Source of the DNA: Jaminaea rosea
Taxonomy: Eukaryota; Basidiomycota; Exobasidiomycetes; Microstromatales
Length of the DNA stretch: 64,000 nt
Assembly (NCBI RefSeq): GCF_003144245.1
Contig: NW_020289988.1
Coordinates: 124,001-188,000 of the forward strand
Direction of reading: 5' to 3'
A program made the position numbers and the translations under genes. This document shows, one piece after another, positions 6,052 through 25,693 of this stretch. Below the pieces are notes generated by a model, which saw only the letters and a list, made by a program, of their open reading frames with translations, was not told the origin of the DNA and did no database searches. Every line of letters starts with the position of its first letter. Positions within the stretch are counted from its first letter, which is position 1.

Positions 6052-6561
6052 ATGCTCGCCCAGAAATGCGCCATTTTCCTCCCTGTCGCTGCACTTGCTG
6101 TAATCTGGACACCTGTCTGGTCCGCTGTGACGGGATCTGTCGGCTACTGCTCGCCCACGGTGGGAGATCGGTGAGTGGTATTCTGTGCAAAATCAGCATG
6201 CTCTTACGCTGACCGACCGCTTCGGTACCTAGCAACTGTACCGAGGCCACCGACGCGCATGACCTCATCGGCTATCCTAAAGGGGGAAAGGTCAACACAG
6301 GACAGACATGCTACGCCTTTCGTCCGAAAGTCTTGGTGTCGAAGATCTGCGAGAATGAGGGGTGCATTGGAAAGGGCAAGTGTGCCGACATCAATTCAGG
6401 CGATGGGTCTTGCATCTACTTTACTAATCCAGCCGATGCGCCTATCAGTGAGTCGACACAAAGGGCATCCCTGCACTGCGGCATGACTGACGACCTGCCT
6501 CTCCTTTGGCACGTCAACAGAGTGCCTCGTCACGGCCTCAGGCCAGATTGACCTAGAGTAA
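6052..6561 (+). CDS. Small secreted cysteine-rich protein, cluster copy A
   Basis: Exons 6052-6170, 6233-6447 and 6521-6561 give 124 residues. Residues 1-24 form a signal peptide (MLAQK start, hydrophobic core, end near WSA). The mature part has eight cysteines spaced C-x8-C-x23-C-x12-C-x4-C-x5-C-x9-C-x12-C. Intron 1 (phase 2) falls just before cysteine 2 and intron 2 (phase 1) just before cysteine 8, as in most other copies. The tail after the last cysteine (LVTASGQIDLE) is longer than usual. It is probably exported and disulfide-bonded. I do not recognise the family, so function is unknown; an effector or antimicrobial role is only a guess from size, secretion and cysteine content. Confidence 0.85.
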
Positions 6562-6683
6562 CCGTCGCGACGAACGCGACGCGGTTCAAACGTCCAAAAG
6601 CAACCGGTGAAGAACAACATGGTATCATTGTCGACTACATACGTCTTGATGTCTTTCCCTACTCTGAGATATGGTATATTCAA

Positions 6684-7415
6684 CTACAATCTCTTGACTC
6701 CCCGCTTGACACCAGTCGCGCTTTTCTTGACTGCGGTCGTCTTACTGACAGGAGCTGATGGCGGAGGCGCAGCGGTATTGAGGCTGCTCTGTCCAAGAGG
6801 GAGTACAGCTGCTGCTACCTCTACACCTGATGCTGATGCTGGTGCTGATGGCTCCTCTGACGCGAATAGTTCTGCAATTCTGGGATTGGCAGCGTGCACG
6901 CTTGTCCACAGAGTGGCCGTCGAGGCATAGTCATCGTATGCTTCTTGAAGGAGTCGCCCCGCTTCAGGATTGAGTGCTGAGTCTGGGTTGGGTGAAATGA
7001 GGAGGCACTTGACTGTGGTCAGGATGTGCGCGATGCCGTAGTGCGGCTGCCAGTCCTTCTTGAGGGTTGAGACGCAGATCTCGCCGGAGGAGGAGACGTT
7101 TGGGTGGAAGACTGCGCGGCGAGAGGATAGGAGGGATGGTCAGCTGCGATCATCCACTTGTACTGATGTTCCCCCGCGCTCACTCTTTGTTGGCATGCGA
7201 CATTGCGGCGGCACAGCTGGGAATTCGCTGGTGAAAGCAAAAGTGACGAGGAAGAAGCCTCCCTCGAAGGGCGTACCAGGCGGACCCTGCACCCAGCCCT
7301 TGATTGCGAGAATATCCGCTTCATCGACTTCGATGCGGACGCAGTCTGGGGGGTTTGATTGGATCTGTCGGATCTCCTTGACTAAGCGACGAGTGGTCTG
7401 AGGAGGGAGGCTCAT
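6684..7415 (-). CDS. UBE2S: Ubiquitin-conjugating enzyme E2, UBE2S type
   Basis: Exons (minus) 7415-7184 and 7111-6684 give 219 residues, against 222 in human UBE2S. The UBC fold runs from about residue 3 to 160, with catalytic Cys90 in [12 protein letters not shown] and the UBE2S-like stretch [14 protein letters not shown]. The intron is placed so that the junction reads KIFHPNV, the family motif. The start at MSLPPQ matches UBE2S N-termini; an upstream in-frame codon would add about 23 residues without homology. In animals UBE2S lengthens Lys11-linked ubiquitin chains on anaphase-promoting-complex substrates. After the fold comes an Ala/Ser/Pro linker and a basic tail ending VKRL, comparable to the LRRL end that docks human UBE2S on the complex. 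It is divergent with the DUF1917 gene (180-base gap). Confidence 0.92.
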
Positions 7416-7595
7416 GTTGTTGTTGGTGTTGGTGTGGAGAGAAGTCAAGCTGTGCATTCGCTCGCGTCGAGCCTCAACCAACACTCAGAGTTGGACGGGC
7501 GGAGAGCGAAATCTCAAACGACGGAGACGAGACGCGGGTGGAGCGAGTCGCGACTCCACTTGATCACTCTTTCCATCCCTTCAAAGAAAGCCACG
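7416..7595. promoter_or_regulatory. Short divergent promoter, UBE2S / DUF1917 gene
   Basis: Only 180 bases separate the two start codons on opposite strands, so the two housekeeping genes must share or overlap their promoter region. No specific operator motif was recognised. Confidence 0.55.
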
Positions 7596-9181
7596 ATGGC
7601 GTCTGGCAGCGCATCCACAGCTGTTGCGCCAGCGAAAAGTGCAGACGACCTTCTCGCCCAATACCGCGCCGAGTCAACGCCAGCACCGAATGCTCCCTTC
7701 GTCTGGAAGCCATCCTCACCCGGCAACGCCGATGGCTTGAGCGACTTTCTCGAAGCCCATCTGCCTTCGACGACCACTTCACGCGGCGGCAGCAGACACA
7801 TCTGGGTCACTATTCCATACAAGCGTCAGTCATCGTCTCGCTCAGACAATGATATGAAGTTCGCCCTCGCTCAAGCACACCACGCCTTCGCGGAGCTGAG
7901 CACTTCTTGCCAGGCGATCGAGGACAACGACAAGATTCCTCAACGCCAGAACAGAAAGCAGGGAATGAGCAAAGGTCAGAGGAAGAAGGTCCTCATCGAC
8001 GACTTTGGCGCTTCGTTGCCGCGCTGGGCGGATGAGGGTGGGTTACTCACGGGCAAGTGGCTGATGTTCAAGGATGACAAGTGGGTCGACTACGGGTTTC
8101 GTACATTGGCCTACTCCATCATCGATGGGCCCCTTTCGCAGTGCAAGAGCGCCAATGTCCACACCGTCAAAGTAGACTGCGCGGATCATCGCAAGAATGG
8201 CGAGCAACTGATCAGCCTCTTCTATGAGGATGTATGGGACGAGGCGGCATCGACGGAGATTGCGAGGATCATGTTGCGCCATCACTGCCAGTACTCGCGA
8301 GCGGCCAAGACAGACCTTCATTCCGCGCTCGGGATCAATAGCAAGGTGAAAGGCGTGGCTATCAGTGGGGATTCGACTCGTCTTGCTGATCTTTCTCCTC
8401 TTTGCGCCCATAGCACTGGACCAACCTCCCCTCCTCGATCCATCGCTTCGACTCGCTCATTCCTCGCGAAACGCAGGAAGAGCTCAAGGAGCAGTACCGC
8501 GTCGAAAAGGCGCAGCGGGACAAGGAGAAGAAGAAAAGGGGAGAGAAGTCCAGTCACAGCCCGGAAGCGAGTAGATCGGCAGGTGGAAAGAAGGTGACAG
8601 CAAAGGGTGCACCCATGCAGGCGGCTGACTTCTGGCAAGAGACCGATGATGACGGCGACGAGGAGGAGGGGATGATGGGGGATGATCTGAGCTCCAGACA
8701 ACAGCCAGCGAAGCCTACGACGCTGGCTCCGTCTGCGCCTGCGACGGACCAGCCTGAGGCAGCGATGCGATCCCACGCCATTACGCCCGCCGCACCGAAA
8801 AGCGCTGTAGCCGGCGAAGTAGACGACAGCGAGACGGAGGACGAGGAGGAAGAGATGGTCAAGAGCGCTCCTCTTCGAGCTCCGAGCCATCAAGCGTCTG
8901 TCTCGTCCACCTCCACCGCCGTTCCAGCCTCAATTGCAGCCACAGCTTCGACATCAACTACTGCCCCCGCCTCGAGAGCAGATCCAGTTCCACCGCCCAA
9001 CGTGATCCCTGCAAAGCGGTCGTCCACCGGCGCTACTATGTCCACGCCCGCCGTAGGATCCGCAGTCGTTGCCGTGCCTGCGTCCTCCTCAACTCCTATC
9101 CCTGCGCCTGTCCGACCTACCTCTGCCGCCGACATGGCCAAGGCCAAGCAAGCGCGGAGAGGCGGCAAAGGCGCCTTCTGA
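7596..9181 (+). CDS. DUF1917 (Bles03-like) protein
   Basis: Exons 7596-8345 and 8414-9181 give 505 residues. The intron follows GINSK and the second exon resumes HWTNLPSSIHRFDSL, restoring a single frame. The N-terminal half (about 20-290) has features of the DUF1917/Bles03 family: IWVTIPYKR, GKWLMFKDDKWVDYGFRTLA, and a region where lysines, histidines and VDCAD alternate. The family fold resembles eIF4E-like cap-binding proteins, but its cellular role is unsettled. The C-terminal 210 residues are low-complexity Ala/Ser/Pro/acidic sequence, including an EDEEEE stretch, and end KARRGGKGAF. The position inside the secreted-protein cluster seems incidental. Confidence 0.8.
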
Positions 9182-9577
9182 TTCGCATGCGCCTGTCAAG
9201 ACGGTCTCAGGGCCTGACTGCCCTTTCCATATCCGGCTTTGCCCATCATCAAGGCTCCTACGCCTCTCTTGTATCACTAGCCACAACAGCGAGCTCGGCT
9301 CCGCATTCTTCGCTCATTGTCGTCACCTCAACCTTCAGTTGATATCCACATTCAACGTTGGACCCCTGCCAGACAATCGGTCTTCTTCCTCCCGGCCTTG
9401 CCCTGCTGTCCGCATGAGCGGCGGGTGGACTCATCGTACGTGGCTCAAGTGATGGGCCACAGGGCAGGCCGAGGGCGGCAATGCAGCGCACGTCCGTCGG
9501 TCAAGTCATTTCGACGTTTGCCATTTCTCAAGCAGTACTTGCGCTCCATGCTGCCACGCTAAGATCTCCCTTCTCAC
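9182..9577. other. Intergenic region
   Basis: 396 bases between the DUF1917 gene and secreted-protein copy B. It presumably holds the terminator of the first and the promoter of the second. I see no gene or repeat. Confidence 0.4.
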
Positions 9578-10126
9578 ATGATCATGCTCGTCGCCGTCTT
9601 CATCGCCGTTGCGCTCACGCTTGCTCCTCAGTCCTCAGCTGGGGGCAACAGGTTTGTTGGCGTTGGCTACACGAACCCAACCGATCAGTGAGTCCACTCC
9701 GCCTACGTCCCGCGCATCGCCTGCATCTCATCGAGCTCAACCCGCCGACTCCAAGACGCTGCTTGAGCGAAGAGGAGACTGTCAACGCCATTGGCCCCGC
9801 TTCGGGCCAGGTGGTAATGCAAGGTTATGTCTACTCCTTCTGGACCAACGTGCCCATCTCTCACATCTGTGAAGATACAGCGTGCTCCAAGTGCGATGAC
9901 GCCGACCTTGACGTTGGAGATTGCTTTTGGTTCAAGACGCCCGGCCTTCCCATCAGTTAGTAGTTGCGCGAGTGATGGCCGGCAGGTTTCTGCGACTGAC
10001 ATCATCGCTCCTGTATGGCTCGCAGAGTGCATCGTAACATCTGATTCCGAGGAGGAGAGCTGGCTACTGGACAGGGCAGAGAGCAGTGACCCGGTGAGCC
10101 GGGGACCGGCGATGCTGAGGCTGTAG
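9578..10126 (+). CDS. Small secreted cysteine-rich protein, cluster copy B (six cysteines)
   Basis: Exons 9578-9687, 9756-9955 and 10026-10126 give 136 residues. The signal peptide (MIMLVAVFIAVALTLA, about 20 residues) is clear. Intron positions and phases (2 and 1) match copy A. The mature part keeps cysteines 2 and 4-8 (C-x4-C-x2-C-x9-C-x11-C for the last five). Where other copies have cysteines 1 and 3 it has Gly and Val. The C-terminal exon is unusually long (about 33 residues, acidic then basic). Paralogy rests on exon structure and on the ICEDTAC / PIKC landmarks. The two losses together suggest that cysteines 1 and 3 normally pair. Confidence 0.78.
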
Positions 10127-10233
10127 GTCTCCTGTAATGGCATCTCGAGTCTGTGGCACTCAATCACACAGCAATTGGCAGATCTGTCATTGTCCGCACG
10201 TTCTCGAATTACAAACAGTCCTGCTCGCTTCAC

Positions 10234-10714
10234 TCACGCCATCACGACGCACTCTGCGTAGGTGCCGTATGGTGCGTCAGCAGCGAAGCGCAACACTCGC
10301 TGCGAACTCACGAATGTTGGCATCAGCGCGGTCAGAGAAGCGAAGGCACGAACCACGCCCCAAATTGGTTTTCTTGCAGCGTCCTTTGCAGAGCTTATCC
10401 TCGCAGACTTTTGCCATCCGGTATTGGGGCTTGAATGCGAAGCAGTCACGATCAGTGCGTACGGCTCCAGGAGCCCGGTAGCCGAAGACAGGCATAGCTT
10501 CAGTCGCATTGATACAGGTGCTGGCGGGCGTGAGGGGCGCGGTCAGCATGCCTTGTAGCCCCGGAGCTACAGATGAAACTCACGTATCGCCTTTCGTGGG
10601 AGAGCAAGTCCCTACCTCTCCATAGGTGAGAGTGGACGATGCTGGCAGCCAAGTGATGGCTAGGAGGACAATGGCAATTGAAAGGATGAAGGCGATCCTT
10701 GAGAAGAACATCAT
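10234..10714 (-). CDS. Small secreted cysteine-rich protein, cluster copy C
   Basis: Exons (minus) 10714-10584, 10520-10312 and 10253-10234 give 119 residues. The signal peptide covers about 1-28 (two Met codons at the start, hydrophobic core, then LPASS). Eight cysteines are spaced x8, x23, x12, x4, x3, x9, x12, nearly identical to copy A apart from the fifth gap. The last exon is only 20 bases and encodes the end of a Gln codon and CVVMA-stop. Intron phases are 2 and 1 as in the family. It is convergent with copy B (107-base gap) and divergent from copy D, which shows the array contains inversions as well as direct duplications. Confidence 0.85.
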
Positions 10715-11326
10715 GGCAGACTCAGCGTGAATGAAAGAAGTACGGAAGGTAGTATGCTGACTGGGCGCTGCACCGGCTTATCTCGATGTTGTATAGCCAA
10801 TTTACTCCTGAGGCGACCTTCAGAGCGAGACAAACCTCTCACGCTCGGAGGTTTGGCCGACCATCAACAGCTCGTTGCTCTTGCCCGCGCGTGCAAATAG
10901 CTAAGGGAGGAGTAGGCTGCGCGTGATGGCACTGCGGTAAGAAGCGTCCATGGCCGACTTTGATTCGGCGTTTTTGTGGGTCGCGGGCTCGGGAGCTGGC
11001 ACCGCGACAGTATGTACTTTCGCTGAAAGCCGGCCCGGCTGGCTCTGATCTTGCGCTTTACCTCAGCTCCCTGATATGCATCCGCCAGCCGTGATGGCAA
11101 TGCGGGCCAGTGAGGAAAGGATTTGACGCACGCCGGCGCGGCAATAAAGGTGAAGCCCTCGCTCCGTGATGCGGCGTGGTATCTGCCGCCTCGTAATGCC
11201 AGGTGCGCAGCGGGCCGTCGTGCCGTCGAATTACGCACAAAGGGCTTTGAGAGCCTTCTGGAGATGTACTCCGACCATCTTACATCTTGTCGTTCGATTT
11301 ATCACTTCGCTTTGCCAACTTTCGAA
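10715..11326. promoter_or_regulatory. Divergent intergenic region, copies C and D
   Basis: 612 bases between two start codons on opposite strands; it should contain both promoters. No gene recognised and no obvious shared promoter box found by eye. Confidence 0.45.
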
Positions 11327-11819
11327 ATGCTCGCCAAGAACCTTCACCGCGTCCTCCTCGCCGCAGCCGTTATCCTCACCACGGCGTGGGCCCCCTCTGC
11401 GTCTGCTCAGACCTTCAACATCGGTTTTTGTAGCAGCCAGCCCAACGATTAGTGAGCCACCATTTCAGCCGACAATCTGATTTACTGCTGATGTCGCCTT
11501 TCGCCCGCAACACCAGCTCTTGCAAGGCTGCATGCAACGCTACGGTGGTCGTCGGTAATAAAGGAGCTGCTGCCAACACTAAATTGCCATGCCTCAACTT
11601 CTTGATTCAGCGGCCCATCACCAAAATCTGTGAGGACCCAGGCTGCGTTGGGAAATGCGCCGACATCACCGCAGCCCCTGGGCAGTGCGTCCACTTCAAG
11701 TATCCCCTGAATCATGACATCAGTGGGTTGCAATGCAGGAATTCCTTGCCAGCGTAGGTAGTAGCTGACGCCCATACTTTCGTTCAAACTTGGCAGAGTG
11801 TGTTTTCACGGCAGCGTAA
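11327..11819 (+). CDS. Small secreted cysteine-rich protein, cluster copy D
   Basis: Exons 11327-11451, 11517-11722 and 11797-11819 give 117 residues. Signal peptide about 1-27, ending ASA before QTF. The eight family cysteines are present with gaps x8, x22, x12, x4, x3, x9, x12; one further cysteine lies three residues after cysteine 2 (SCKAAC), making nine. The last exon encodes KCVFTAA. Mature N-termini of D and E are alike (QTFNIGFCSS, QTYHIGDCSS), as are their signal peptides (MLAKNLHR, MLANNFHR), so these two look like a recent pair. Confidence 0.85.
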
Positions 11820-12619
11820 GCAACGTCGCATCGCCAGAAGGTCCGGGTCAAAGCTGCTCGCCGCGTGTGACACTGCCTGCTTGTCTTGCTTCCAATCAAG
11901 CGGCGCCGTATGCGTGATTGGTACCATTTCGCGCTCGTCGTGTAGGACATTGTCATTCTGTGCGAGCTGTGTACCAAATCTCATCGGCTTGTCATATCTT
12001 TCAAGAGGCGTGGCTGATGATAGCGACCGTCGGCTGAGCTTTCGGCAATTTTCGATGCACGGGCCGCCGCCGCACAAATGAGATGCCGCAGGTTCTCGCC
12101 TGCACGCGTGTGGCTCGAAAGTGCCTCGGTCAGGTGGGCCGATTGAGCGGGCCGTCCAACCATTGCTTTGAACATTTCCGATGCCACCTCACAATCTCAG
12201 TCTCGCCATCGTTTCATGGCCGTGCACGTCATCACCTTTGGGCATGCGGTCACAGCAGCTGCCGTCATCCGTCCCGCCTGTACCGTACTGCGGCTGCCCC
12301 GGCACTCCTTGCCAGACTGTATGCGGTCAAACGTTGCAGCGCAGTCATACGCAAGCGTTGTGGCCAGAGCTCAAAACGTCTGTCTGCCTTCTGTCCTCGC
12401 GATATGTCGTCGATCCGGAAGTTCTTTCCCCACTAGGCGCAAAAGGACTCTGCCGACGCCAATGTCCGGTCTACGGTCCGCTTTGTCGTGACGTGATCGT
12501 GGGCGCTTCATCTCGAGACGTACAAATAGGGGAAATCTGGGCAGAGGGTCGGCCGGGTCGATCTGAGCAGCTCGATGTCTCCATCTTTTCTTCTTGCGCC
12601 TGAACATCGCATCTTGACC
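11820..12619. other. Intergenic region between copies D and E
   Basis: 800 bases without a supported gene. Several overlapping frames stay open, some cysteine-rich by chance, but none has a signal peptide plus the family spacing. It should include the copy E promoter. Confidence 0.4.
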
Positions 12620-13112
12620 ATGCTTGCTAACAACTTCCATCGCACCATCTTTGCCCTATCCCTTGCTCTTGCCGTGAGCTGGACACACACTTGTTCTGCT
12701 CAGACCTATCATATTGGAGACTGCTCGTCGACAAACGCTGATGTGTTAGTACGTTCTCGCTTTCAGATACTGGCTTCCTGCGAGGCAAATGTGCTGAACA
12801 AGCGCGTCGCCTCACCGTGAATAGTACCTGTAAGCATGCCACCACCATGGTCGTAGGCATCAAGAACGGGTCCACCAACACCGACACAGATTGCAAGGAG
12901 TTTCGGACGAAGTTTCCCATCAAGGCCCTTTGCCTGGAAATAGGCTGCAGCAAGTGCACCAGCTTTGACCGTGGGGCTGGAGAGTGCGTCTACTTCACCA
13001 ATCCGTTGCTTGCCCAGATCAGTACGTACGTGATGAAGTCATTCGCTGGTGAGATGGTCACTGACAGGTGGACCCTCTACATTTGCCCTCAGAGTGTGTC
13101 ATTATGGCGTAG
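12620..13112 (+). CDS. Small secreted cysteine-rich protein, cluster copy E
   Basis: Exons 12620-12744, 12825-13021 and 13093-13112 give 113 residues. Signal peptide about 1-25 ending TCSA before QTY. Eight mature cysteines are spaced x8, x20, x12, x4, x2, x9, x12. The landmark ECVYFTNP before the last intron resembles CIYFTNP of copy A. Intron 1 uses a GTTAGT donor; frame and phase agree with the family. The last exon is 20 bases (KCVIMA-stop). Confidence 0.85.
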
Positions 13113-13659
13113 AAAGCAAGGGCACAAGGAAGCGTGGGTGACGCAGTCGAAGATGACTACACTCTGACCTTTGTAGTCGACACGGCCTTTAACACTTGAC
13201 CCGGTCTTAACACATCTCTGCTCATCGCTCGCCTGCTAGAGTCATGCCTTTGCCACAGAAAGAAGCCATCTTCACCATCCTCTGCTTTCATTGCGCGAGG
13301 CTCGCTGCAGCCAGTATTCTCGACTTGCTCTGACTTGGTCAAAGTGACTCCTGCGTATGCCTGTGATCACGATGAAGCCTCGAATGTGTTTCGGTGCCAA
13401 AGTGGGCGCCTGAAACTTGACGGCATTGAAGTGCCTCTTCTGTGTGTGCTGCCTGGGATTTGGTTGTGCTACAGCACAGTCGACGCCTTCCCACGTAACA
13501 CAGCACAGCCGCAATCCTCCCACGATGCACTTGCTGTACCCGGTGAGATTGCTCCTTATGAGCGGCATTGCGGTGCCGGAGAGCTGGGGCGAACGTATCG
13601 TCGTATTGACATCGGTCTGTTGGCGCCTGTCCTCTCACCCCTTTCCCTCCATCGCCACC
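13113..13659. other. Intergenic region between copies E and F
   Basis: 547 bases with no supported gene. The frame of copy F stays open upstream, but extension would need a non-ATG start and would bury the signal peptide, so it is treated as non-coding. Confidence 0.4.
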
Positions 13660-14144
13660 ATGTTGTTCTTCAGCCGTGCCTGCCACCACACGGCCGCTTT
13701 GGCGGTTGCCCTTTTGCTGTCCACTGTTACCTGCCTTCCCTTTGACCCACCGCTGATCACCTATCTCGGATCGTGTTCACCCCGTCCTGGCGACAAGTGA
13801 GAAAGCAGACAGGCAAGGGCGAGAAGACGCTGAACCTCCGCCTACATCACTCCTTACCCGCAAGCGCCTGCCTCGCGAGCGACGCCAAGCCCATCGACGG
13901 CCCCAGTGAGGGAGCCAGCCCAATCTATCTCCCGTGCTACAACTTCCACACCAACGTCTTCATCTCCAAGATTTGCCAAGATCATGCTTGCCAGATATGC
14001 GCCAACGCCAGCCACGGTAAAGGCAACTGTCTCCGCTTCACGTGGCCCGTGGACGCGACCATCGGTGGGTTTGGGCGAGGTGACATCTATGTTCTGGCAC
14101 GACTGACCATTCACGCTCCCTCAGGCTGTGTCATTGCGGCCTGA
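13660..14144 (+). CDS. Small secreted cysteine-rich protein, cluster copy F
   Basis: Exons 13660-13796, 13865-14064 and 14125-14144 give 118 residues. Signal peptide about 1-26 (MLFFSRACHH, then a long Ala/Leu core). Mature cysteines are spaced x8, x21, x12, x4, x2, x9, x12. The 20-base last exon encodes CVIAA after a split Gly codon. Intron phases 2 and 1 match the family. The start was chosen because only this ATG puts a signal peptide at the N-terminus. Confidence 0.85.
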
Positions 14145-14825
14145 GCCATTGAGGGGGTACTGGAGTATACGGGCAAGGGGGGCTTTCACGGATCAGCGAG
14201 AAAGAGGCGACATGAGAGCTCTGATCAACAGACGAGGTGGCATGGCAAGCAATGTGCTTAGTGCGGTCATGGACAGACAGGCGACGCCCAGCCCAGCTGC
14301 GGTCAGGCACCGTTGACCATCGAGCTCTCACTGCGAGTCTACAGTATCATTGCGATTGCGCATGACCTGACCAAAGCCAGTGTGACAGCTAAAGTAGCCG
14401 CGGACATGCGTAGAAAGGTGTGAAGAACACATCAGGCAGATTGATGTGGGCGGTGTGCGATGATGAAAAGCGACTGTTCAGCCTTTCTGAGCGTGATGCT
14501 CGACGAATGTGCCATTGGCGAAGAATCTTGCCTCTTGTTCCGGGATGCCATGTGCAAGCAACGCCACATACCTTACTTCCATCCATCTCGGAATTATCGC
14601 CGCTTGCGAAGTGGCTATAGAGGGCACGAGGCAGTCGTCAGCAATTTATTGGCCCCTGCGGCCGACCCTCATGCCCACCGGAGTTTCGACAATTGCCCTG
14701 CGCCGCCGAATGTCGTGCTTCACACTTGAGGTACTGTAGAGCTTCGTGCGGACAAGGAGATCATCATCAATCAATTGTGACCTCCCGAAAATCCCTTAGC
14801 CCTCCCTCAAGTATAATCCACTACT
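14145..14825. other. Intergenic region between copies F and G, possible gene relic
   Basis: 681 bases. A plus-strand frame from 14460 (about 89 codons) carries DCSAF and, later, SCLLF, reminiscent of landmarks around family cysteines 3 and 7, but it lacks a signal peptide and the full scaffold. I would not call it a gene; it may be a chance frame or a decayed copy. Confidence 0.3.
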
Positions 14826-15405
14826 ATGATGCTCCTGAAACCGTTTATCAAGCTCGCTGCTCTCGCTGCGGTGCTCTGCTGCGGTGTCAGGGGAGACGAG
14901 GCAGATGAGAAGCTCTTGGGGTGAGAAGCATAAGTACAATCTTTGCTCGAGCTGTGCCTAACGCACTTCGGCTCATCGCACGCAGGTCTTGCTCTGTGGG
15001 GGTCAAAGATGTCAGTAATGACAACGCTGACACTATCCCCACAGGAGAGAAAGGCCCGCTGACAGGCCTCTGCTTTTACCATCAGTGTACTGCGGACATT
15101 CAAGTTGGAATCAACGGACCTTCCAATGGGTCTACTTCTATCGACGTAGACTGCGCCTCTTACAAAACTCTCTTCCCCATGAAGGCAGTGTGCGGCAACC
15201 GCGACTGCAAGACTAAGTGCAGGTACTTCCACCGAGCCCCTAGCGCTGGAGAGTGCATCAACGCAGACGACGTCAGGGGTATCCAGCCTCGTGAATCTTC
15301 GCAAGGGAATGTGGAGACGTGACGGAATGATACGCTGATGCATCTCAACTTTTCTGTCCAACAGTCTGCGTCATTTACGTGAGACTCATGGTCATGGTAC
15401 CGTAG
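14826..15405 (+). CDS. Small secreted cysteine-rich protein, cluster copy G (extra intron)
   Basis: Predicted exons 14826-14920, 14986-15010, 15086-15278 and 15365-15405 give 117 residues. Signal peptide about 1-21. Cysteine gaps are x6, x21, x12, x4, x3, x11, x8. One intron lies just before cysteine 1 and another (15011-15085, 75 bases) just before cysteine 2. The second has no stop and a length divisible by three, so keeping it would add 25 residues with one more cysteine. It is called an intron because its removal gives the C1-x6-C2 spacing of neighbouring copy H and it has good branch and acceptor signals. The tail after the last cysteine is longer and hydrophobic (VIYVRLMVMVP). Confidence 0.72.
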
Positions 15406-15815
15406 GCTAGCTTCTCCCTCCCGCTGACTCCTCCTTCTCGCCTGGCACAGGAGTTTTGAGCTGAGCGATGCGGCACAGGCGGGCTAGTCCAGCGCTGCTG
15501 AGAGACTTTTGTCAAAGAGGGGCTTTCAATTCACCATCTCGCCTTTTGCAGTAACACCCACGATGCATAAGCATGTGTTAGTGTAGTACAGTGAGAGTCC
15601 ATCGTCTGAGCGTGCGGGACAGAAGCGAAGAAGAGGCCCATCGATGTCCAAATGTGCCAGCTATTGAGCACGAGATAGGCCGAGCGAGGCCGCGGAAAGC
15701 TGAGGAAGCAAAGAGACAAGATGTAGAGGTGGACGACGAGTAACAGCCAGGTACTGTACGAGGGTCGGACGGGACCATAGCCTGCTGTACGTGGCATTCA
15801 GGACGTGCAAGCGCA
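15406..15815. other. Convergent intergenic region, copies G and H
   Basis: 410 bases between two 3' ends. A minus-strand frame encodes a hydrophobic run near 15700, but it belongs to a chance frame that begins after copy H has ended. No gene supported. Confidence 0.4.
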
Positions 15816-16277
15816 TCACATGAAGACGAGGCAGCCTGTGAGGAAGACGAGGGCGACAATGTCAATGAGAGATCACAGGCTTCCGTGGCTTTGCAAGGCA
15901 CCGACGCAGCCTTTTCTTTGTGCCTACGCATTGACCAGGTACTGCGTTGACAGAGGCACACTCCTGAAAGCAATTGTCTTGAAGACAGACGCCCGAGAGG
16001 TCCCAGTATGGCTTGAAGCTCTGACAGTTCACCAACCAATTTCCAGGGTATCGGGAGGCGTATACTGGAGCGGAGTCTGAGCCGTGACAGGTTTGACTCG
16101 ACTGATAACATGTGCCTACGAGCAGAAGAGGAGCGGCAACAGTGAGAGATGCAGGTGAAGTACAGATAGCGCAAGCGTGGGGCACACACCGATGAAGACC
16201 TTGAGACCTGTATCGGCGTCGACTTGCGTTGCACAGATGAACAAAAAGAGAAGCTGAACTGAAACTGCGACAAACAT
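15816..16277 (-). CDS. Small secreted cysteine-rich protein, cluster copy H
   Basis: Predicted exons (minus) 16277-16190, 16115-15906 and 15835-15816 give 105 residues. Signal peptide about 1-20 (MFVAVSVQLLFLFICA). Cysteine gaps are x6, x20, x12, x4, x3, x9, x8, sharing the short first and last gaps with copy G. Its first intron (phase 1) lies two codons before cysteine 1; the intron other copies have before cysteine 2 is absent. The last donor (GTCGGT) is weak and was chosen because it restores phase 1 and yields the family-like 20-base last exon (CLVFM-stop). Another donor 22 bases upstream would change the frame. Confidence 0.7.
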
Positions 16278-19590: not shown

Positions 19591-21870
19591 ATGTCCACTG
19601 CCACTCTACCTCCCGCTGACCCCTCTCTCGTGGGTCCTAGCGGCTACGACTTCTCCGTTGGGACTGCCATTCCAGCCAATATGGCGCATGCGGTCTCGGT
19701 CAGCCTGCCCAAATGGCAGGATAATGTCGACTACGAGGAAGGAAGATTAGGAGATGTTATGCAGATTGGATATCCCCGATTCTTTGTTCACAAGAGCATA
19801 CAGAAGGTGAGCAGACTGAGATCTTGCATCGTACCGCAGCTGAAACGTGTCACTGACCCACCCCCTCGCACAGCTCGCCTCTGTCCTCCTCCGCAAGTTT
19901 GGTACCCCAGGCCAGGCTGACCAAGAGCCAGAAGCGTGCTACCTCTTCCCCTCGTCGCGCGTAGCAGACCGATGTCGCTCCTTCATGCGTGCGCAGCATG
20001 CCCAGCAACACCCCGACGGCCCGGCTCTTGCGGTGAGAGTCGTTCAATTCAGCCTCGTTCTCCCCTCTGCAAGCGTAGCGAGTGGCTCAGCGGAGCAGTC
20101 GCTAGCTGCCGCACCAGTGCAGCTCTTCGTCGTCCTCTTCCCGGCCTCAGCGGGGTCACTTGCCAAGTCATATTGGCAGCACACGGGTGATGGAATCAGT
20201 AGTCGACTGGCGGAGCATTGCCTCAACATCCTCGAGGAGACGGGGAGACTGGGCGCCGACGATGGACCTGCAACGCCTACCGCAACAAATGGCTCATCGG
20301 ACGACTCTCCCTCCTCTTCGACCATCCTCACCCCACCTTCGACCGCCGAACCAGTGCACAGGCGATACTCAAAGAATCGCCACTACTCACGCGCAGCACC
20401 TGCATCAGGGTCCACCACACCCGGCACCGCCACTCCCTCGGTCACGACGACTGCTCCGCCCACGAGCTCCTCCGCAGCCTCCTCTGTACCGCCGGTACGA
20501 ATGGCAGATGCCGCAGACCCTGATGCCGAGCTCATGGCGTCGGATCAATCCAGTTACCTCGAAGAACGCTACGGCCGAAACTTGCCCGCCAGCTCTGCCC
20601 CGCTAGCCAAGGCCGCTCTGCGCCGTCGAATCGCGGGGACCTTGCTGAGCGACCGTTCTGACCTCCCTTCCTTGGGCGATGTTGGCCCAACGATGCGCTC
20701 AGGTACAGCTCTGAGCGAGTCCGACGTCTTCCTCTTCCCCTCGGGCATGTCCGCAATCTTCCACGCGCATCAGACTGCCCTCAGATGGCGTGGCGACTCG
20801 GCGGGCAAGAGCGTTTGCTTTGGTTTTCCTTACACGGACACGTTGAAGATTCTACAAAAGTGGGGTCCGGGATGTCACTTCTACGGCAAGGGCAACGATG
20901 CTGAGCTGGACGAATTTGAGGCCCTCCTGCAAGCTCAAAGCTCCTCAGGCGAGTCTCGTATTCTCGCCCTCTTTTGCGAATTTCCCTCGAACCCGCTGCT
21001 TCGCTCCCCTGACCTGCCCCGCATTCGTCGTTTGGCGGATAAGTACGACTTCCTCGTCGTGGTGGACGAGACGATTGGCAACTTCTTGAATGTAGAGGTT
21101 CTGCCGTATGCCGACATGGTTGTCAGCAGCTTGACCAAGGTCTTCAGTGGGGACGCGAATGTGATGGGTGGGTCGATGGTCGTGAACCCGAAAGGGAGAC
21201 ATGCGGAGGAGGTGAGGCAGGTGCTGCTCGGTCAAGGAGGAGCTGGAGGGGAGTACGAGGACAATTACTGGGGTGTGGACGCGGTGAGTGTCACGCTATT
21301 CCATCAGCGAGAGGGTCAGCTCCCTCACCCTCGACCTCCCACTTACCCTTGGCCCCGCTCCTGCAGGTCTTCATGGAGCGCAACTCCCGCGACTTTGCCC
21401 GTCGCGTGCAGCGAATAGATGCAAATGCCGAGGCTCTCGCGAGCATGCTACACGCCCGGCTCAATAGCAGCCCAGTATTGAAGGGGGTCTACTATCCCAA
21501 ATTCGAGACACGCTCTCACTACGACGCTTGTCGCCGCAAGATTGCTCTTCCTTACCCTCGCGACGCTGAGGAGCAGAAAGAGCAACAGGGCGGCTTCGGA
21601 GGCCTCTTCTCCGTCATTTTCACCACGCTCTCTGCCTCGCAAGCATTCTACGACGCCCTATGCTGCGCTAAAGGGCCGAGTCTGGGCACCAATTTCACGC
21701 TGGCTAGCCCTTACACGCTGCTCGCGCACTACTATGAGCTGGACTGGGCGAAGCAGTTTGGTGTCGAGGCTAGTTTGGTCAGGGTGTCCACAGGATTGGA
21801 GGAGACGAAGGGTTTAGTAGAGATGTTTGAGAGGGCGCTCAGAAAGGCAGAGGAGAGCGAGAAGAAGTGA
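19591..21870 (+). CDS. STR2: Cystathionine gamma-synthase, STR2 type
   Basis: Exons 19591-19806, 19874-21283 and 21367-21870 (all phase 0) give 709 residues. The N-terminal motif AHAVSVSLPKWQDNVDYEEG and the GYPRFF motif match yeast STR2. The PLP lysine is Lys494 in SSLTKVFSGD. The enzyme joins O-acylhomoserine and cysteine into cystathionine in transsulfuration, presumably in the cytosol. Compared with other fold-type I PLP enzymes it carries an inserted Ser/Thr/Pro-rich linker of roughly 100 residues (about 205-310) between the N-terminal module and the catalytic core, plus a short GGFGG-containing loop near the C-terminus. Exon ends have ordinary GT-AG signals. Confidence 0.92.
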
Positions 21871-22191
21871 GAGGACAGAGCATTGAAAGTCCGCGATCAC
21901 GGCGTCCAACACGCTGCTGATTGGGGCGAGAGAAGAGAATACAGGAAGCATGGAGCCCAGCTGGCTCGCCCACGTAGCATGACATACTAATAGGCTTGAC
22001 ACCGCATCGCCGTTACCCTTGTACAATCCAACTTGTACCCATATCCCCTCGCTATCACAACGCACATTGCAATACACGCGTTCACACCGTGCAAGTGCAG
22101 TAGCCAATGATGGTTGCTTTTCGCGGAGAGGACAGTACATCTCTAACTCTGTACCTTTGTTCCCGCACATGCTTTGTCCTGAAGTTCAGGC
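21871..22191. other. Convergent intergenic region, STR2 / eIF2-alpha
   Basis: 321 bases between two stop codons on opposite strands; holds both 3' ends. Nothing else seen. Confidence 0.45.
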
Positions 22192-23235
22192 TCATGCCTC
22201 CCCCTCAGAGTCATCATCATCACCTGCCACCTCTGCGTTCTCCTCACCCATCCTCTCCAACAATCGCTCCAGCTCCTTGTCCTCCGTCTCACTGACCGTC
22301 TTTGGCATCATCTTGACATTGACCTGCCCTCCGTCCCCCTTGATCTCAGCCTCGACAGCCTTGAGCGCCTCTTCCATGCGGGCAATGGCCGCCACCTTGT
22401 CCGTCGAATGGCTGACCAGAACATAGAGGGGCGGTGCGACGAGCTTGACTCGGATGGGGACGAGCTCGGTGGAGTGCTCCTCTGCCTTACCCAACGCTCG
22501 ACGAATTGCGTCAATCCCCTGGTAACCGAAGCAAGTGACTTCAACATCCGAACGGATCTTGACGGGTTGCGGTGTCAATCGTCGCGCAATATTGGCCTGC
22601 AGCTCCTTCAAGACGAGCGGGTCCAACTTATCCTTGATCTCAGGGATGCCGAATACTGCGTCGCTCTCGCTGACGGCAAGCTTGAATGCATCGTAGGAGT
22701 GGCCGAACTTCTTGTCGAGGGGCCATGCGATTTGCTGATAGAGTTCGAGGAGCTTTGCCTCGCCTTGCTCTGATACGGCACCTGCGCCTGCGGAGAGCTC
22801 TCCCGTTGAGATCTTGCCTGCTACGTGTGCGAGGATCGAGTGGACGGCCTGTGAGCGGCGAGAGGGTTCAAGATCAAGAGTCAGCTTGTAAGATGCGGTG
22901 GAGTGGGTTGCTCGTCGGCATTCGTGACGCACCTTCGACTTGTTGTATCGCTCTTCGCACTTGATGACATCATCTGCCGAGACTCTTCGCTTTGACAGGT
23001 CGATGTAGCCCTTCTCCTTGTCTACCCTCAACACTACAACGACCTCGTTCCTCCCTACCCTGATCAACTTCTGGATCGACCTAATACGCCTTCTGCTCAG
23101 CTCGGAAAGCAAGATCATCCCCTCGGCATTGTCGTATTCGAGGAGCTTGACGTAGGCTCCCATCTCTGCTATTTGGCGGACCTGGCACATGACGACCTCG
23201 TCTACGTCCGGCAGCGTCTTTTCGTAGTAGCGCAT
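22192..23235 (-). CDS. SUI2: Translation initiation factor eIF2 subunit alpha
   Basis: Exons (minus) 23235-22933 and 22848-22192 give 319 residues (yeast 304, human 315). The S1/OB domain (about 10-85) contains AEMGAYVKLLEYDN and SELSRRRIRS; Ser47 here corresponds to the regulatory serine 51 phosphorylated by GCN2-type kinases. The C-terminal domains contain RRLTPQPVKIRSDVEVTCFG and the protein ends in an acidic tail (GDDDDSEGEA). The 84-base intron lies between KSK and AVHSIL; it is in frame without a stop, so simple ORF calling would wrongly retain 28 residues. The family alignment (KSKTVHSIL in yeast) shows it must be removed. Confidence 0.97.
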   Translation of the reverse strand: MRYYEKTLPDVDEVVMCQVRQIAEMGAYVKLLEYDNAEGMILLSELSRRRIRSIQKLIRVGRNEVVVVLRVDKEKGYIDLSKRRVSADDVIKCEERYNKSKVRHECRRATHSTASYKLTLDLEPSRRSQAVHSILAHVAGKISTGELSAGAGAVSEQGEAKLLELYQQIAWPLDKKFGHSYDAFKLAVSESDAVFGIPEIKDKLDPLVLKELQANIARRLTPQPVKIRSDVEVTCFGYQGIDAIRRALGKAEEHSTELVPIRVKLVAPPLYVLVSHSTDKVAAIARMEEALKAVEAEIKGDGGQVNVKMMPKTVSETEDKELERLLERMGEENAEVAGDDDDSEGEA

Positions 23236-23717
23236 GGCGGGCGAGAGGTTTGGGGGCGTGTTGAGGAGGAAGAAAGAGAAGGGAAGGGCTACTGCGTAGG
23301 GCGATGCAGTAGTGAGTAGGCGCGAAGCGATGTAGCTAATGCCTATGCGTTGGTGGCTCGCTCTTGATTAGTGGTTGGTTGTTCGGGACGATCTTCTCAA
23401 CGTCGACTGAATGTCGCTCGCTGCCTCGGCCTGCAGAATCCCAAGCGGGCGCAGAGTCATCATCTTGTCGACAAAGTCGGAACGGAACCACGAGGCGGCG
23501 TTGTCGTCGGACCGCCCAGCCTGTCCGTCCCAACTCATGCAATTGGCCGGCACTCGGCAATGACGGACCAGGAGGAAGCGGGCGGCGGGCAGCGGGGTGG
23601 GCCCTGCATCGCCTTGAGTGCGGGGGTTCCTTGCTTCAGGGCCGCGATAGCGCTCACTGACTTCTTCTTCTTCTCCCTTTCCCTCCTTCTCATCTCGCTC
23701 CCTTGATCCACATCGCA
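23236..23717. promoter_or_regulatory. Divergent promoter region, eIF2-alpha / GGT-like gene
   Basis: 482 bases between two start codons on opposite strands, so promoters of both genes lie here. A pyrimidine-rich tract precedes the plus-strand ATG (about 23660-23700). No gene seen. Confidence 0.5.
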
Positions 23718-25693
23718 ATGTCCTCCTGGCAGCCACCAAGCGATGCCCACTCCCTTCATCCCTCTCAGCTGGGGGAGCAGGGCCTCCACCCCACCTTCAC
23801 CCATTACCCTTCTCGTCGCTCCCAGGTAATGTCCATCAAGGGTATCGCAGCTTCAGCTCAACCCTTGGCCTCGCAGTCAGGCGTTCGCATCCTCGACCAG
23901 GGCGGTAACGCAGCCGACGCCGCAGTCGCGATGGCTGCCGCGCTCAATGTGACCGAGCCATGCAGCACCGGCATCGGCGGTGATGCCTTCTGTCTCTACT
24001 ATGATGCCAAGACCAAGGGGATTCGAGCTTTCAATGGCTCAGGGCGTACGCCGAAAGCCATGACGTTGGACAAACTACGTGCAGCAGGTATCGAGGGACA
24101 GAACATCCCTTTGCTCAGCATTCATGCTGCGACGGTGCCCGGAGCACCGGCGTTGTGGGTCGACGCGGTTGAGAAGCTGGGCAGTGGCAAGGTGGACCTG
24201 AAGCAGGTCCTCGCCCCTGCGATTGACCTGGCAGAGAATGGCTACCCAGTGCACGAGATTGTTTCCCACGCTTGGCAGCGTCAGGAGGGCCAAATCCGCG
24301 ATGCCAGCCCTTCGGGTGGGGAGATGCTGCTAGACGGCAAAGCTCCTCTCCCAGGCGAGGTAATGAGCATGCCCCACCTTGCCCAGACTTTCCGCGACTT
24401 GGCTGCAAAGGGAAAGGATGGCTTCTACAAGGGGCGCGTAGCAGAGGCCATTGTGGAGCTGCACAAGAGCAAGGGAGGCTTTATGACGATGGAGGACCTC
24501 GAGGAGCACGGCAGAGTGGGATCCGAGGAGGTCAAGCCCATCTCGTACACGTACACCTCTGGCACCAAGAAAGACACGGGAGGTGTGACGCTGCATGAGT
24601 GCCCGCCCAATGGACAAGGCTTGACAGCGCTTATCGCCCTAGGCATACTGGACTCCCTACAGGAGTCCGGCACAATCCCACCCTTGTCAACAGTGGACCA
24701 CAACAGTGCCGAGTACCTGCACCCGATCATCGAGGCTTTGCGCTTGGCTTTTGCGGACACAATGTGGTACGTTGCGGATGAACAGCATGTCCACGTTCCC
24801 GTCAAGGAGTTGTTGAGTAAGGAGTACCTAGCCAAGAGAGCGAAGATCTTCGACCCAAAGAAGGCCAGCGAGATTGAGCGGGGGCACCCGACAAGCAGTA
24901 GTGATACCGTCTATTTCTCTGTGGTCGATAAAGAGGGAAACGCATGTAGCTTCATCAACTCGAATTGTACGTGCGGCGAGAGATCCAGCAGATGAAGAAT
25001 GCGCATAGCTGACGCTACGCCCCTCCGCCTTCGCCCGCACAGACGCGGGCTTCGGAACATGCGCTGTACCCAGGGGCTGCGGCTTCACGCTGCAGAACAG
25101 AGGAGCGTGAGTACCGAGCGAAGCCATTGTCCACTGCTCTCCGCCTTTCTCACGCCGCTACCGATTCTTGCACCCACAGTGGCTTCATCCTGTCCGAGGG
25201 CCATCCAAATTGCGTTGCCCCCTCAAAGCGCCCATACCACACGATCATTCCCGCTCTGACAACCTGGGCATCCACCGGCGACCTCCACCTCTCTTACGGC
25301 GTAATGGGCGGCTGGAATCAACCACAAGGCCAGCTTCAAGTCCTCCTGAACGTACTCCGCGGTTACAACGTCCAATCAGCGCTCGATGCGCCGCGCATCT
25401 GTATCGGCCCGGGCATGCCTGATAATGAGAAGAAGAAGGACTTTGGTGGGCCAGAGGGGAAGGGCGAGAAGACGACTGTCAGTCTCGAGGAGGGAATTGA
25501 TGCAAAGGTCGTCGAGACGCTCAGGGGGATGGGTCATGATGTTGATCTAGTGACAGGGTGGGGACGCGGTGTCTTCGGGAGGGGTCAGGTAATCCAGAGG
25601 ATGTACCCACAGCCAGGGAAGAAGGACGGAAGGCATGCTTGGGTTGCAGGGAGTGACTTGAGGGCAGATGGGGCAGCCATCCCGCAGGTGTGA
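23718..25693 (+). CDS. Gamma-glutamyltransferase family protein, YwrD-like
   Basis: Exons 23718-24966, 25043-25106 and 25180-25693 give 608 residues. The N-terminal nucleophile hydrolase fold shows GGNAADAAVAMAAALNV and STGIGGDAFCLYYD. The expected autocleavage site and nucleophile is Thr397 in SSDTVYFSVVDKEGN. The joined exons read SFINSN-YAGFGT and TLQNRGA-GFILSEGHPN, both family motifs. No signal peptide is present, so unlike the second GGT in this window it is probably intracellular. The likely reaction is hydrolysis or transfer of gamma-glutamyl groups (glutathione or relatives), but substrate specificity of the YwrD branch is poorly known. The middle exon is only 64 bases. Confidence 0.9.

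Follow-up and report, generated by a model that had tools for sequence, protein, structure and literature searches.

A family of probably secreted, cysteine-rich proteins with a predicted betagamma-crystallin-like fold in Jaminaea rosea

Within a contig (here C14) of the Jaminaea rosea genome (Ustilaginomycotina, Exobasidiomycetes, Microstromatales), a 64-kb stretch of DNA, referred to as the window, carries genes for small cysteine-rich proteins between its positions 6052 and 16277. This locus raises the question whether these genes belong to one family, which fold the encoded proteins adopt and what they may do. A preliminary description, made from the window's sequence, had proposed eight such genes (A to H) with a common scaffold of eight cysteines, designated C1 to C8; contigs bearing similar names are always marked as such below. 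The central proposal, namely an unrecognised family of small, probably secreted, cysteine-rich and poorly annotated proteins in a member of the Ustilaginomycotina, was supported by the results presented here, and a betagamma-crystallin-like fold is predicted for it.

Gene models and cysteine scaffold

The genes A to H are real. Rebuilt from the window DNA, all eight possess complete reading frames and GT-AG introns of 58–80 bases. Gene A (6052..6561, forward strand; exons 6052-6170, 6233-6447 and 6521-6561) encodes 124 amino acids including all eight scaffold cysteines, and gene B (9578..10126, forward; exons 9578-9687, 9756-9955 and 10026-10126) encodes 136 amino acids, or 134 from the second ATG, lacking C1 and C3. 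Gene C is located on the reverse strand (10234..10714; exons 10714-10584, 10520-10312 and 10253-10234; 119 amino acids). It is followed on the forward strand by D (11327..11819; exons 11327-11451, 11517-11722 and 11797-11819; 117 amino acids), E (12620..13112; exons 12620-12744, 12825-13021 and 13093-13112; 113 amino acids), F (13660..14144; exons 13660-13796, 13865-14064 and 14125-14144; 118 amino acids) and G (14826..15405; exons 14826-14920, 14986-15010, 15086-15290 and 15365-15405; 121 amino acids). Gene H (15862..16277, reverse; exons 16277-16190 and 16115-15862; 113 amino acids) is closer to copies on contig C1 and at the end of contig C14 than to A–G. In line with the signal peptides proposed previously, a hydrophobic N-terminal stretch was found by hydropathy in all eight proteins, from which secretion is predicted; the C-terminus of G is almost as hydrophobic.

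Intron placement is uniform in A–F, where intron 1 (phase 2) lies directly before C2 and intron 2 (phase 1) directly before C8, at identical positions. G possesses introns before C1, C2 and C8, the one before C2 having the less usual donor GTCAGT and being the least certain, and H contains a single intron directly before C1. The expected conservation of exon structure thus applies to A–F and not to G and H, and three or four exons are not present in every copy, H having two, A–F three and G four. The predicted last exon of as little as 20 bases carrying C8 was recovered in C, E and F. Intron 2 of F (60 bases) is open in frame, and its retention would yield a longer protein that keeps C8; the environmental homologue P0004 reads in this way. 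Among the copies outside the window, P0007, P0008 and P0012 contain an intron directly before C1, like H and G, and P0010 is a single open frame. Copies on contig C8 appear intronless downstream of the signal region.

The spacing C3-x12-C4-x4-C5 is indeed invariant in the seven window copies that keep C3. The gap between C5 and C6 is 2, 3 or 5 residues within the window genes, and the distance between C7 and C8, given previously as 8–12, measures 12 residues in six copies, 11 in B and 9 in H. In a six-frame scan of the window, the pattern C-x12-C-x4-C-x(2-6)-C-x(7-13)-C, covering C3 to C7, occurred seven times, always in these genes, as compared to no match when the window was reversed and 0.03 matches on average over 30 local shuffles. 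Among 28 family cores, C1 and C3 are each absent once, both in B and nowhere else, which suggests a disulfide bond between them. Beyond the cysteines, glycine is present two residues before C1 in 27 of 28 cores, and serine (18/28) and phenylalanine (20/28) recur after C3. Six copies on contig C1 (1863.5, 1864.3, 1865.4, 1968.6, 1969.6 and 1970.8 kb) feature an extra cysteine beside C1 together with another after C2; at C14:13.2 kb, a copy carries the former without the latter, which speaks against a strict rule of co-occurrence.

Family size and homology among copies

Based on genome searches with single members, pattern scans and reading frames, at least 29 family copies were detected on three contigs of the J. 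rosea genome: eight in the window on contig C14, six at C14:10-17 kb, ten on contig C1 (1,863-1,998 kb) and five on contig C8 (456-467 kb). This number is a lower bound, as the count does not extend to C8:459.5-463.5 kb or to some further regions of the genome, and two of the contig C8 copies (456.9 and 466.1 kb) were identified by pattern only. The proposed eight-member cluster stands with respect to its genes and their scaffold and is not self-contained. The copies at the end of contig C14 are not labelled subtelomeric, because no telomeric array was found in the first 300 bases of that end. The copy at C1:1865.4 kb is missing one scaffold cysteine, its frame departs near the end from the environmental homologue P0013, and it may be decaying.

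The statement that sequences between the cysteines are almost unrelated did not hold. Mature proteins of the window share 22–47% identity, or 14–41% at non-cysteine positions, and 26 of 28 window pairs scored better than at least 199 of 200 shuffles in which the cysteines were kept fixed, the exceptions being B–G (33 of 200 shuffles as good) and B–H (14 of 200). In a plain protein search, E alone matched A, B, C, D, F and G; H was not matched. Homology also extends across the clusters: profile-profile comparison of A–G with 20 copies of the other clusters gave a probability of 98% (E 2.4e-13), as opposed to at most 1.24% in ten controls with permuted non-cysteine columns. Against the five contig C8 copies alone, the probability was lower (83%).

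In a tree of the cores of 28 of the 29 copies (the copy at C1:1873.9 kb being left out), A–G are split from the remainder with a support of 0.79 (inner nodes 0.51–0.95), and H is placed among the other clusters, where it has no supported position. The copies on contig C8 group together (0.96), as do four of the six copies at the end of contig C14 (0.98). Since the tree separates A–G in this way, they look like a local expansion, with H as an older relative next door.

Database matches were confined to J. rosea itself and to environmental sequences of close similarity. Relatives outside J. rosea were not found in three profile searches of a large protein set (E up to 1 in one search and up to 10 in two), which depend on shared five-residue words (at most 100 per query) and can miss entries, distant Microstromatales relatives included.

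Predicted fold and proposed function

Structure models predicted for B and H represent compact all-beta domains with eight and six strands, respectively, and no helix in the core, and are alignable over their whole length to solved betagamma-crystallins. The idea of one fold for all copies is borne out as far as these two models, whose alignments overlap, and is limited to them. Judged from the models, a secreted, disulfide-rich betagamma-crystallin-like fold is quite likely for the family. The calcium-binding signature of betagamma-crystallins, [ND][ND]xx[ST]S, was present in none of 36 sequences (some of which are duplicates), and the Greek-key sequence signature was also absent. No Pfam crystallin profile scored above its cut-off, A–H giving no crystallin match at all; matches to Crystall_2 remained sub-threshold (P0006, E 0.073, 13.3 bits vs. 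a cut-off of 25; a further match, E 0.087, in one of 17 members). A search of a viral structure library returned nothing at E up to 0.001, the best entry being an uncharacterised algal-virus protein (E 0.085).

One of the closest known systems is WmKT/HM-1 (PDB 1wkt), a yeast killer toxin from Williopsis mrakii and likewise a small, secreted, cysteine-rich single domain whose fold resembles the predicted one; identity in the structural alignment is 13%, and profile searches detected no sequence homology. WmKT is a single protein, as opposed to the numerous paralogues in J. rosea. The Streptomyces proteins SKLP (1f53) and AFP1 (1g6e) and the umbrella toxin chain Umb1 (8w20, 8w22) are bacterial and align with 7–13% identity. 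Profile searches of PDB sequences with two family alignments did not recover WmKT, SKLP or AFP1; one gave nothing and the other only a weak scorpion toxin match. Mig1 and Mig2 of Ustilago maydis, which we take to be clustered, small, cysteine-rich secreted proteins of the same subphylum, were not matched in the three profile searches, and no direct comparison was made.

Killer and antifungal proteins have this fold, as do lens and other proteins, so that the fold alone does not settle the function; it favours a killer or antifungal role but is no proof of it. Microbial antagonism is the best fit to the secreted, cysteine-rich, single-domain nature of the proteins, to the large number of divergent copies and to life on the leaf surface, J. 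rosea being a phylloplane fungus according to the consulted part of PMC7766764. Taken as a whole, a lineage-specific family of secreted betagamma-crystallin-like proteins acting on competing microbes is given an even chance; that the proteins are directed at other microbes is rated somewhat below even. According to this proposal, tandem and dispersed duplication followed by divergence around a fixed framework would have produced a repertoire of variants. Each protein would consist of one all-beta, betagamma-crystallin-like domain stabilised by as many as four disulfide bonds, among them probably C1–C3. Most likely, the proteins would be active extracellularly on leaf surfaces, where they would target rival fungi or bacteria. 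Their very stable fold may, as in WmKT/HM-1, SKLP and AFP1, present variable loops to a cell-wall or surface target. Titles cited in PMC2801674, as far as this source was consulted, associate the toxin of W. mrakii with inhibited cell-wall synthesis; the same target is not claimed for the family. More speculative, and rather doubtful, is a chromosomal arsenal of about 29 betagamma-crystallin mycocins in a free-living basidiomycete yeast. In such an arsenal, which is likened just as tentatively to bacterial polymorphic toxin repertoires, one disulfide-locked fold would be expanded in local clusters while surfaces diverge to hit different competitors.

The net charge, which ranges from -10 to +7, weighs against microbial antagonism. 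The consulted part of PMC7142645 contains nothing on antagonism by Jaminaea.

Among the alternatives, the same family and fold could serve as plant-directed apoplastic effectors that favour persistence on the leaf surface or within the leaf, for instance by inhibiting plant hydrolases or masking the wall of the fungus. The proteins answer the usual description of orphan candidate effectors of fungi, being small, secreted by hydropathy, cysteine-rich and free of an accepted Pfam domain, and the consulted text of PMC10462633 lists the betagamma-crystallin/WmKT fold among those that are common in orphan secreted proteins of Pezizomycotina. These candidate effectors have a predicted double Greek key fold and are likewise small, secreted and without a Pfam domain; they belong to another subphylum, in the Ascomycota, and the likeness is one of description only. 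Considering that J. rosea lives on the phylloplane, that the parts of the literature consulted contain no description of it as a pathogen and that WmKT, the characterised fungal member, acts on yeasts, a plant-directed role is deemed unlikely. Somewhat less likely still is a self-directed role of the same proteins at the cell surface or in the matrix, in adhesion, or in self/non-self recognition during the yeast-hypha cycle. Direct inspection of the eight models revealed no membrane anchor or wall-binding module, and structural matches for such roles were weak.

Membership in the CS-alpha-beta peptides (defensin or scorpion-toxin-like, with an N-terminal extension) is very improbable. It was indicated by Pfam SLR1-BP on C (E 0.00039; weaker on A, F and H), by gamma-thionin matches on H (E 0.18) and P0006 (E 0.44) and by the scorpion toxin BmK37 over C4–C7 (E 0.33), all of which are below curated cut-offs. 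The variable C5–C6 gap in place of a fixed C-x3-C, the missing closing C-x-C pair and the helix-free core of the B and H models led to its rejection. The possibility that the frames are open by chance and their cysteine spacing coincidental, for which only short length and many introns speak, was ruled out with near certainty by the pattern controls, the conserved introns and their phases, the public model of B and the column-permutation control.

Annotation, neighbouring genes and significance

In public annotation, the J. rosea protein BDZ90DRAFT_262158 corresponds to B from the second ATG with both introns identical, and BDZ90DRAFT_262161 is a fusion of part of E (its large exon) with exons 2 and 3 of F, reproduced exactly by the window exons. 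For A, D, G and H no public protein was found in the three profile searches, and C was found only via an environmental homologue (these word-sampling searches can miss entries), which suggests that A, D, G and H are publicly unannotated. Four copies outside the window (P0007, P0008, P0010 and P0012) have public models as hypothetical proteins. The expectation that standard callers would miss most copies agrees with the poor annotation, models being found only for B and the E–F fusion among A–H, while the absence of the others is suggested rather than proven. Genes with short exons such as these are merged or overlooked in public annotation.

Environmental homologues were compared at the protein level. 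The large exon of C is identical to that of P0003, with three changes in the read-through introns; that of F differs from P0004 by two changes, as compared to seven in about 20 residues of read-through intron 2 and about one in intron 1. The large exon of E (12826-13020) differs from P0005 at 3 of 65 residues and the stretch behind it at one, too few for a claim on selection. For the copy at C1:1872.8 kb, the core showed one change and the N-terminal part many. C and F support the gene models and constraint, and simple constraint does not account for E. The changing selection proposed earlier is thus unproven.

The cluster is interrupted between A and B by two unrelated genes: a ubiquitin-conjugating enzyme gene (6700..7415, reverse strand; Pfam PF00179, E 1.4e-17) and a gene for a Bles03-domain protein (7596..9181, forward strand; Pfam PF08939, E 1.1e-11), both with approximate limits. 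Further downstream (19847-24992), genes for a Cys/Met metabolism PLP enzyme, eIF2-alpha and gamma-glutamyltranspeptidase are located. No promoter word is shared by the eight genes, the top upstream 7-mer occurring in three of eight, no more than in random segments. Other sub-threshold Pfam matches (DUF3586, best E 0.00036; Auts2, best E 0.0033; YncO, TgMIC1 and others) were scattered over single members below cut-off, formed no consistent domain and were discarded.

In the parts of the literature searched, no description was found of the J. rosea family, its eight-cysteine scaffold, its two intron layouts, its size or its occurrence in this host group; the secreted betagamma-crystallin/WmKT fold as such is known in fungi. 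What had been orphan, poorly annotated genes can now be treated as one family that is open to experimental testing and has a likely fold. The results suggest that the WmKT-type secreted fold has also expanded in a leaf-surface yeast of the Ustilaginomycotina, and a set of about 29 naturally occurring variants of a single scaffold becomes available for studies of the function of such proteins.
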